From NCBI GenBank assembly GCA_016792565.1, contig JAEUMK010000021.1:1-49586 (forward strand): DNA of 49,586 nucleotides, read 5' to 3'. Positions within the stretch are counted from its first letter, which is position 1. Every line of letters starts with the position of its first letter. Both the position numbers and the translations under genes were made by a program. Source of the DNA: Alphaproteobacteria bacterium (GTDB taxonomy: Bacteria; Pseudomonadota; Alphaproteobacteria; Micropepsales; Micropepsaceae). Of the stretch, positions 2,118 through 4,226 are shown piece after piece. The notes under the pieces were generated by a model, which was not told the DNA's origin, made no database searches, and saw only the letters and a list, made by a program, of their open reading frames with translations.

Positions 2118-2153
2118 GAAAGGGCCGCCCCCATTTCAGGGGACGGCCCTTTC
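2118..2153 (-). terminator. Strong terminator hairpin of the minus-strand micro-ORF unit
   Basis: GAAAGGGCCG (2118-2127) pairs perfectly with CGGCCCTTTC (2144-2153). An inner CCCC/GGGG pairing follows after one mismatch, with a 6-base loop. On the minus strand the stem is followed by TGTTTG. It may also stop plus-strand transcription, where TTCCTTG follows. It lies about 45 bases beyond the stop of the micro-ORF. Confidence 0.65.
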
Positions 2154-2198
2154 CTTGCGAATCCGCGAATCCGGTCTGGACCCTTGGGCGCCTTCAGC

Positions 2199-2276
2199 TC
2201 AGGCGCGGCGGTCCGTGCCGGAGGCGACAGACCAGAGACCCATGGCCGGCAGACGCGGCTTCTTGCAATGAGACAC
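2199..2276 (-). CDS. Micro-ORF (25 aa) behind a perfect extended Shine-Dalgarno
   Basis: GTG start at 2276 and TGA at 2199-2201. The peptide begins VSHCKKPRLP, contains AMGLWSVA and ends SGTDRRA. Its start lies seven bases after GGAGG within AAGGAGGTGATCC, which is complementary to the 3' end of 16S rRNA over 13 bases. A hairpin terminator follows, and a TATATT element (2312-2317) upstream could be its -10 box. The unit is thus about 180 bases and self-contained. I do not recognise the peptide. It could be a translated microprotein, a leader peptide, or the carrier of a ribosome-binding RNA decoy. A longer overlapping frame that uses the GTG inside the AAGGAGGTGATCC motif runs through the terminator and is judged spurious. 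Confidence 0.5.
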   Translation of the reverse strand: MSHCKKPRLPAMGLWSVASGTDRRA

Positions 2277-2277
2277 T

Positions 2278-2290
2278 GGATCACCTCCTT
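2278..2290 (-). promoter_or_regulatory. 13-base perfect anti-16S 3'-end sequence (extended SD)
   Basis: On the plus strand this reads GGATCACCTCCTT, identical to the conserved 3' terminus of bacterial 16S rRNA. On the minus strand it is the full complement and precedes GTG at a good spacing. Ordinary genes in this window show only 4-6 matching bases. Confidence 0.75.
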
Positions 2291-2350
2291 CCGTTGGTTG
2301 ACGACGCACCCAATATAGGCAGCAACCGCCGCATCGGCTAGAGGGGGGCG

Positions 2351-3307
2351 ATGGCCGCCATCGACGAGCACGACACCACGCTGCGCCTGCCGCCCTTCCA
2401 CGCGCTGCGCGCCTTCGAGGCCGCCGGGCGGCATCTCAGCTTTGCGCGCGCCGCCGACGAGCTGGGGGTCAGCCCGGCTGCCGTCAGCCAGCACATCCAG
2501 CAGATGGAGGAGTTCGCCGGCCAGCCGCTCTTCCGCCGCCTCGGCCGCCGGGTCGAGCTGACCGACGCCGGCACGGCGGCCCTCGTCCATGTCGCCGCCG
2601 CGATGGCGAGCCTGGGCGACGCCGCCCGCATCATGCGCCTGCCGCTGCGCGGCCACCGCGTCTCGGTCTCGGTCGCCCCCTCCTTCGCCATCAAATGGCT
2701 GGTCCCAAGGCTCGAGCGCTTCAAGGCCCTGCACCCCGACATCGAGGTCTGGGTCTCGGCCGATATGGGCCTCGTCGATTTCGCGGTCGCCGACGTCGAT
2801 CTCGCCATCCGCTACGGGGCGGGCGGCTATGCCGACTCGCAGGCCCAGATGCTGCTCACCGAATCCGTGGTGCCGATCTGCTCGCCCTCGCTGATCGAGG
2901 GCGACGGCGCGCTGAAGAGCCCGGCCGACATCGCCCGCTTCGCCCTCCTGCACGACGACAGCCCCGACCGCGACCCCTCGTGCCCGACCTGGCCGATGTG
3001 GCTGATGGCCCGCGGCCTCGACGTCGAGCACGCCCGCAGGGGCCTGCGCTTCAACCAGTCGAGCCTGGTGGTCGAGGCGGCGATCGCCGGCAAGGGCATC
3101 GCCCTCGCCAAGGGCCAGCTCGCCGCCGCCGACATCGCCGCCGGGCGGCTCATCACGCCCTTCGAAAACGCCGAGACGCCGATCAATTTCGCCTATTGGC
3201 TGGTGTGGCGGCGCGGCCGCTCGCTCTCGCCCGGCCTCAAGGCGTTCATGGACTGGATCCGCGAGGAGGCCGGCCAGGGCGACGCCGATATCGGCGCGGG
3301 GATCTGA
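2351..3307 (+). CDS. LysR family transcriptional regulator (GcvA-like)
   Basis: 318 aa. The N-terminal winged helix-turn-helix is visible around residues 15-75 (ALRAFEAAGRHLSFARAA, then GVSPAAVSQHIQQMEE and PLFRRLGRRVELTDAG), followed by a periplasmic-binding-like effector domain that starts near VSVAPSFAIKWLVPRL. That pattern is typical of the GcvA subgroup. Its effector and target are not evident. LysR proteins often control a divergent neighbour; the divergent unit here is the micro-ORF at 2199-2276, and the next gene downstream is a convergent ferredoxin-NADP reductase seven bases away. A GAGGGGGG stretch directly before the ATG is the ribosome site. A TATAGG element at 2314-2319 may be its -10 box, but no good -35 is seen. 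Confidence 0.88.
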   Translation: MAAIDEHDTTLRLPPFHALRAFEAAGRHLSFARAADELGVSPAAVSQHIQQMEEFAGQPLFRRLGRRVELTDAGTAALVHVAAAMASLGDAARIMRLPLRGHRVSVSVAPSFAIKWLVPRLERFKALHPDIEVWVSADMGLVDFAVADVDLAIRYGAGGYADSQAQMLLTESVVPICSPSLIEGDGALKSPADIARFALLHDDSPDRDPSCPTWPMWLMARGLDVEHARRGLRFNQSSLVVEAAIAGKGIALAKGQLAAADIAAGRLITPFENAETPINFAYWLVWRRGRSLSPGLKAFMDWIREEAGQGDADIGAGI

Positions 3308-3314
3308 CCCCGGT

Positions 3315-4124
3315 CTAGCCGACGAAGGCGCGCTCGATCACGAACTCGGCCGGCTGGGCGTTCGAGCCTTCCTTGAGGCCCGCCTTCTCCAGCAGCGCCT
3401 TGGTGTCGGCGATCATCGCCATCGAGCCGCAGATCATCGCCCGGTCCGAGGCCGGATCGAGCGGCGGCACGCCGAGATCGGCGAACAGCTGCCCGCTCTC
3501 CATCAGCGACGTGATGCGCCCCATGCGCGGCCCGGCCTCCTGGGTGACGCTGGTATAGTGGCGCAGCTTGCCCGCCGTCATCTCGCCGACCAGCGGGTCC
3601 TCGCGCGTCGTCGCCACCAGGTGCTCGCCATAGGCCAGCTCCGCCGTCTGGCGGCAGGTATGGGTGAGGATCACTTCCTCGTAGCGCTCATAGGTGTCCG
3701 GGTCGCGGATCAGCGAGGCGAAGGGGGCGATGCCGGTGCCGGTGGAGAAGAGATAGAGCCGCTTGCCGGGGGTGAGGGCGTCCAGCACCAGCGTCCCCGT
3801 CGGCTTGCGCCCCAGCAGCACGGTGTCGCCCGGCTCGATCTTCAGCAGGTGCGAGGTCAGCGGCCCGCCCTCGACCTTGATGGAGTAGAAGTCCAGCGCC
3901 TCGTCCCAGGCCGGGCTGGCGATCGAATAGGCCCTCAGCAGCGGCTTGCCGGCGATGACCAGGCCGATCATCACGAACTCGCCCGAACGGAAGCGGAACG
4001 AGGCCGGGCGGGTGATCCGGAACGAGAACAGCCTGTCGGTCCAGTGCCTGACCTCCAGCACGGTCTCGGTGGTCGGCCCGCCGGATTTGGCGGCGGTCGT
4101 CTCGGCGCTATCGCTGGAACTCAT
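3315..4124 (-). CDS. fpr: Ferredoxin--NADP reductase
   Basis: 269 aa, the normal size of bacterial class II Fpr. RAYSIASP (about residues 64-71) is the FAD-binding signature. STGTGIAPFASLIRDP (about 127-142) is the nicotinamide-site motif. The protein ends in IERAFVG, matching the usual C-terminal aromatic tail of this family. It transfers electrons between NADPH and ferredoxin or flavodoxin in the cytosol. It diverges from cysI across a 234-base gap, so it could supply reduced ferredoxin to the ferredoxin-type sulfite reductase CysI, which lacks a CysJ partner here; that link is inferred. An ORF open to 4226 adds a low-complexity RG-rich leader. The ATG at 4124, where MSSSDSAETT begins, is preferred. 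Confidence 0.88.
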   Translation of the reverse strand: MSSSDSAETTAAKSGGPTTETVLEVRHWTDRLFSFRITRPASFRFRSGEFVMIGLVIAGKPLLRAYSIASPAWDEALDFYSIKVEGGPLTSHLLKIEPGDTVLLGRKPTGTLVLDALTPGKRLYLFSTGTGIAPFASLIRDPDTYERYEEVILTHTCRQTAELAYGEHLVATTREDPLVGEMTAGKLRHYTSVTQEAGPRMGRITSLMESGQLFADLGVPPLDPASDRAMICGSMAMIADTKALLEKAGLKEGSNAQPAEFVIERAFVG

Positions 4125-4226
4125 CGGGAAAGTCCTGGTCCGGGGCCGGGATCGGCCGGGAAGTGACGCACATGGGCGGCTCTGGCGGCCGGTGCCATGG
4201 GAAGAGCCCCCGCCGCCACGCCGCAT

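Follow-up and report, generated by a model that had tools for sequence, protein, structure and literature searches.

What is selected in a small RNA that can form as many as 17 base pairs with the 3′ end of 16S rRNA, and then offers the ribosome a reading frame of only 25 codons? The question is raised by a minus-strand unit near one end of a 49,586-nucleotide stretch of DNA (hereafter, the window) from an alphaproteobacterium of the Micropepsaceae. A sequence-only reading had proposed a highly translated microprotein, a leader peptide, or an RNA that sequesters 30S subunits, and had suggested that a divergent LysR gene might respond to it.

Organization of the unit

The unit comprises the following parts, given in window coordinates:

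2312–2317 (−): −10-like promoter box TATATT, as CTATATTGG unchanged in 5/5 genomes of the genus
2122–2300 (−): whole unit matched by Rfam RF01867 (CC2171), 76.9 bits, model positions 1–159 of 159
2276–2292 (−): extended Shine-Dalgarno (SD) sequence GGAAGGAGGTGATCCAG, pairing with the 16S 3′ end; it overlaps the start codon by its last base
2199–2276 (−): 25-codon ORF by translation, GTG start, TGA stop, peptide VSHCKKPRLPAMGLWSVASGTDRRA; start codons interchange and a short in-frame ORF is present in relatives
2255–2272 (−): 5′ arm of a long-range closing stem, about codons 2–8, pairing with 2151–2167 (partner-swap test, Rfam closing stem)
2216–2236 (−): ORF-internal anti-SD segment TCTGGTCTGTCGCCTCCGGCA, able to pair with the SD in the predicted fold (z = −2.3 against shuffles)
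2151–2167 (−): 3′ arm of the closing stem, at the terminator foot (Rfam model, swap test, RNAalifold)
2118–2153 (−): intrinsic terminator hairpin, with one U·G and four G–C inside ten perfect outer pairs; poor U tract TGTTTG

The GTG start lies at 2276, with GGAGG seven bases earlier, and the outer arms of the terminator are GAAAGGGCCG and CGGCCCTTTC (ten pairs), with TGTTTG directly after. The start codon, frame, hairpin, and TATATT box are all as the sequence-only reading had described them. Together they suggest a stand-alone RNA of about 185 bases with its own promoter and terminator. The transcript would start near 2305–2300, and the Rfam model begins at 2300.

Family assignment and distribution

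An Infernal search matched the unit to RF01867, "caulobacter sRNA CC2171", with 76.9 bits (E = 9.6e-15). The gathering cut-off of 75 bits was reached over the full length of the model, and the stem closing the start region onto the terminator foot is also present, as are the terminator and a very short ORF whose start codon comes straight after the SD. The genome holds one true copy; a second match (29.3 bits, C110) was rejected as spurious, being the end of a coding gene followed by a terminator.

Searches with RF01867 found the family in 36 of 61 relatives and in 85 of 385 genomes of the class. The model recognizes a Brevundimonas copy, and did not recognize the tested copies from Bradyrhizobium, Ruegeria, Sphingomonas, Novosphingobium, Mesorhizobium, and Gemmatimonadota. 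A search pattern using sequence only, AAGGAGGTGATCCNDTG, matched 68 of 135 alphaproteobacterial genomes (counted from the listing) against 1 of 263 other Pseudomonadota. The same pattern reversed, used as a control, matched 0/398 genomes, compared with 69/398 for the real pattern. Given this contrast and the Rfam E value, the unit is not a chance arrangement. The succession of SD, start, short ORF, and hairpin, for which a search of relatives had been proposed, recurs across Alphaproteobacteria, and an RNA with so extreme a match to the ribosome is retained, one per genome, in about half of those sampled.

The pattern also reaches a second phylum. Four Gemmatimonadota MAGs appeared among the first 117 stretches listed in a scan of named genomes, and a search of the phylum matched 25 of 150 genomes, with one match each, all TTG-started, and none for the control. 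The units read (L183–L203, e.g., L188 1501–1717) have frames of 14–22 codons followed by a terminator-like hairpin, and most contain a GATCGCC-like segment. A very long stem joins the ORF with the segment just before the terminator (native −32.3 kcal/mol, partners swapped −25.8 kcal/mol; native better in 18 of 20). These units are of the same architecture. No report of the TTG-started version was found in the literature searched, the text of Hahn et al. (2017) aside, and it looks new here, as does the joining of CC2171 with the rre small mRNAs discussed below.

Single matches in Prochlorococcus and Virgisporangium were not counted as members; the latter is a 201-aa gene. The Prochlorococcus record (L102, 3870–3888 (−)) has an extended SD, TTG, a frame of 33 codons, and a strong terminator whose T run is long, in one case. 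Phage contigs carrying the SD of the unit members were likewise set aside, most of them containing a 65-aa phage gene. In L205, L209–L213, L215, L216, and other IMG/VR contigs this gene (LSTTVFDVLN...) starts from TTG behind an identical 13-base extended SD. Four contigs called viral (L204, L206, L230, and L243) hold rreB-like (14–16 aa) and CC2171-like (21 aa) units, which are probably host DNA swept into prophage calls.

The reading frame and its peptide

All 53 true loci found with Rfam have the SD, an NTG start at equal spacing, and a frame closing within 20–30 codons. Neither frame nor length was selected on in this set, as reading frames play no part in Rfam scoring. GTG, ATG, or TTG invariably follows the SD, whereas the base ahead of that triplet varies. 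In a wider set of 147 non-redundant units, an in-frame stop falls at 14–36 codons in 147/147, against 51 (35%) expected from shuffling and 51 and 49 in frames +1 and +2. Part of this set was collected with a pattern in which a start codon is required, frames longer than 45 codons were discarded (three pattern hits), and L102 and L157 were removed by hand; the result is thus partly by construction, and the unfiltered Rfam loci give the cleaner evidence. ORF lengths of 14–31 aa are clade-specific: 14 in Bradyrhizobium and 18 in Rhodobacteraceae (both with GTG starts), 18 also in Sphingomonadaceae, and 20–26 in the VSHC group. The reading frame looks real. Since start codons interchange and a short in-frame ORF is universally kept, a real, translatable small unit with exceptional ribosome complementarity is supported.

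Is the product of this frame what matters? If a very strong ribosome-binding site served to make a functional microprotein, this would account for the conserved start and stop and for clade-specific motifs such as VSRxxLERGVGT and MSHGS. However, pooled pN/pS is near 1 in well-sampled groups (0.86–1.30; 0.59–1.83 over all groups), which argues for little amino-acid constraint, and lengths spread from 14 to 31 aa. Conserved-looking residues also coincide with RNA pairing segments: codons 2–7 pair with the terminator foot, and codons of about 14–19 (the TWIxAS motif) resemble the 16S tail. The synonymous-biased change that had been suggested as a check is not seen in the well-sampled groups. Within the window's genus, pS exceeds pN in 5 of 6 same-genus pairs, a hint of weak peptide constraint, and together with short clade motifs (LERGVGT, EQP) this leaves room for a peptide role. 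On balance a selected microprotein is poorly supported and unlikely as the main explanation. The peptide appears nearly unconstrained, and the constraint lies in the RNA, on the SD, the long-range stem, and, in some clades, an internal anti-SD.

RNA structure

The arms of the closing stem vary in sequence between clades and stay complementary. In the VSHx clade the native stem is computed at −15.1 kcal/mol, compared with −12.8 for swaps within the clade and −6 to −11 for swaps across clades; in the MSHG clade the native value is −16.9, against −8.5 to −11.7 across clades. RNAalifold (39 sequences) recovered both the closing stem and the terminator, with two-sided changes at one pair of the former and eight of the latter. 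Covariation contributes a weak term in the alignment (−1.04 kcal/mol), and the case for the closing stem is carried mostly by the partner-swap test. Pairing of the SD inside the ORF is clear in rreB-type units (5/5) and partial in the MSS and VSHx groups; in the MSHG (MSHG18) and VSR (VSR18) groups it does not reach significance.

A plain non-coding, trans-acting sRNA, in which the AAGGAGGTG segment pairs with targets and the ORF is incidental, would agree with the Rfam classification and with a predicted fold of the whole unit that is more stable than shuffles (z −3.07). Against this, all relatives read have an NTG start, interchanging in kind, and a short ORF in frame with it, which would not be expected if the ORF were incidental; we consider this account slightly less likely still than the microprotein.

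Complementarity to the 16S rRNA 3′ end

The window's assembly lacks a 16S gene, and the 16S tail of a congener (G003) was therefore used for pairing. The SD forms 15 contiguous Watson–Crick pairs with this tail and 17 pairs in all with one G·U, extending through CAG. The anti-16S match noted earlier is confirmed and its length corrected, having been given as 13 bases; that core, AAGGAGGTGATCC at 2290–2278 (−), has one exact copy in the window. There is no rRNA at the locus, and an antisense to a 16S gene was ruled out. The computed duplex energy is about −31.9 kcal/mol against −10.1 kcal/mol for canonical AAGGAGG, about three times as strong. The stronger grip on the ribosome that had been anticipated is borne out for the computed duplex, and we infer that 30S binding would be far stronger than at a normal gene start. 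The majority of genes in Alphaproteobacteria may start without an SD; such starts make up 75.4% in Caulobacter (PMC4117421).

A duplex of about −32 kcal/mol, three times the canonical SD, would suit an RNA dedicated to sequestering 30S subunits, with translation unneeded. Pure sequestration has no need for the start and stop that are kept everywhere, and with a single gene copy per genome, titration on a large scale is doubtful unless the RNA accumulates to very high levels. Of the earlier proposal, 30S binding fits best and sequestration is unproven; as a complete account we hold it improbable, a shade more so than the trans-acting sRNA.

Genomic neighborhood

A LysR gene lies divergent at the unit in 5/5 genomes of the window's genus. 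Outside the genus, LysR was seen only as one 40% identical protein near L164. In the window, a LysR-type regulator occupies 2351–3307 (+) and a ferredoxin-NADP reductase-like gene 3315–4226 (−), both named from sequence alone; in both congeners for which ORFs were listed, the reductase-like gene adjoins as well. No neighbor gene was shared among the clades compared, which argues that the unit acts on its own. A LysR partnership was rejected as a general feature, being genus-level only. It is very improbable that the unit is a leader or signal regulating the divergent LysR gene: the constancy of that gene within the genus is countered by its absence elsewhere, by neighbors that vary by clade, and by a terminator that precedes any downstream gene. 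The leader peptide is likewise unsupported, because the frame is followed by the terminator and no conserved gene lies downstream.

Proposed mechanism

The unit is probably a small mRNA of the CC2171/rre kind that stands alone and binds 30S, with selection acting on ribosome occupancy and not on the peptide. The RNA would be transcribed from its own promoter and end at its own terminator. Its extended SD can base-pair with the 16S 3′ end over as many as 17 positions, which would give strong 30S binding. Start-proximal codons are tied to the terminator foot, a pairing supported by covariation, and in several clades the SD also pairs inside the ORF; with these two pairings, the RNA could alternate between being closed on itself and being bound to 30S. 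A token ORF of 14–31 codons would allow the bound ribosome to start, traverse the frame, open up the fold, and so clear the RNA, in line with the stabilization that rreB is said to show on loss of its start codon. Initiation would be slow and turnover coupled to translation. Ribosome occupancy of the RNA may then report on free 30S subunits or buffer them mildly; if the ORF serves to open the fold and clear the RNA, occupancy rather than the peptide would be the selected property. It is tempting to extend this to an RNA class across Alphaproteobacteria and Gemmatimonadota that senses or buffers free 30S by toggling between self-closure and pairing with 16S, its ORF solely coupling ribosome availability to RNA life span. 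That generalization is tentative, and we would not yet bet on it.

Comparison with known systems

The consensus of RF01867 has the SD, GTG, closing stem, and terminator of the window unit. Rfam files the family as a non-coding sRNA, whereas the relatives read here keep an ORF.

Hahn and co-workers reportedly described small mRNAs with an extended SD, namely rreB (Bradyrhizobium, 14 aa, GTG) and rreR (Rhodobacter lineage, 18 aa). The rre type is said to be defined by a small ORF preceded by at least 16 nt complementary to the 16S 3′ end, and to combine co-sedimentation with 30S and weak translation; for rreB, 30S binding was reportedly found, and the RNA is said to be stabilized once the start codon is lost. 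The 14-aa Bradyrhizobium and 18-aa Rhodobacteraceae copies recovered by our pattern fit the published rreB and rreR. Since these forms fit, the names CC2171 and rre appear to cover a single kind of element. The window unit shares with rreB and rreR the extended SD, the place of the start codon, a very short ORF, and a similar RNA size. It differs in its longest unbroken Watson–Crick match (15, against a reported 16–17 for rreB/rreR) and in its peptide (25 aa, against 14 and 18 aa). The peptide has no visible resemblance to RreB or RreR, and the unit is therefore filed as the same kind and not as an orthologue of either.

In the literature searched, no further description of rreB or related small mRNAs was found; PMC7298713 cites the original report in its reference list (Hahn et al. 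2017, RNA Biol 14:1353, doi 10.1080/15476286.2016.1256534). The rnTrpL/peTrpL RNA of Sinorhizobium (PMC10117765) is likewise a small alphaproteobacterial RNA with a very short ORF. However, it is leaderless and precedes an attenuated operon, in contrast to the very long SD of the window unit, which has no attenuated operon downstream.

Judged by these comparisons, the window unit is a member of CC2171 and of the same kind as rre, a kind that is widespread but poorly understood. Rfam calls it non-coding and the literature, for a subset, a small mRNA; here both are joined and Gemmatimonadota added. The joined set provides defined elements for asking whether an RNA can be selected for ribosome occupancy.
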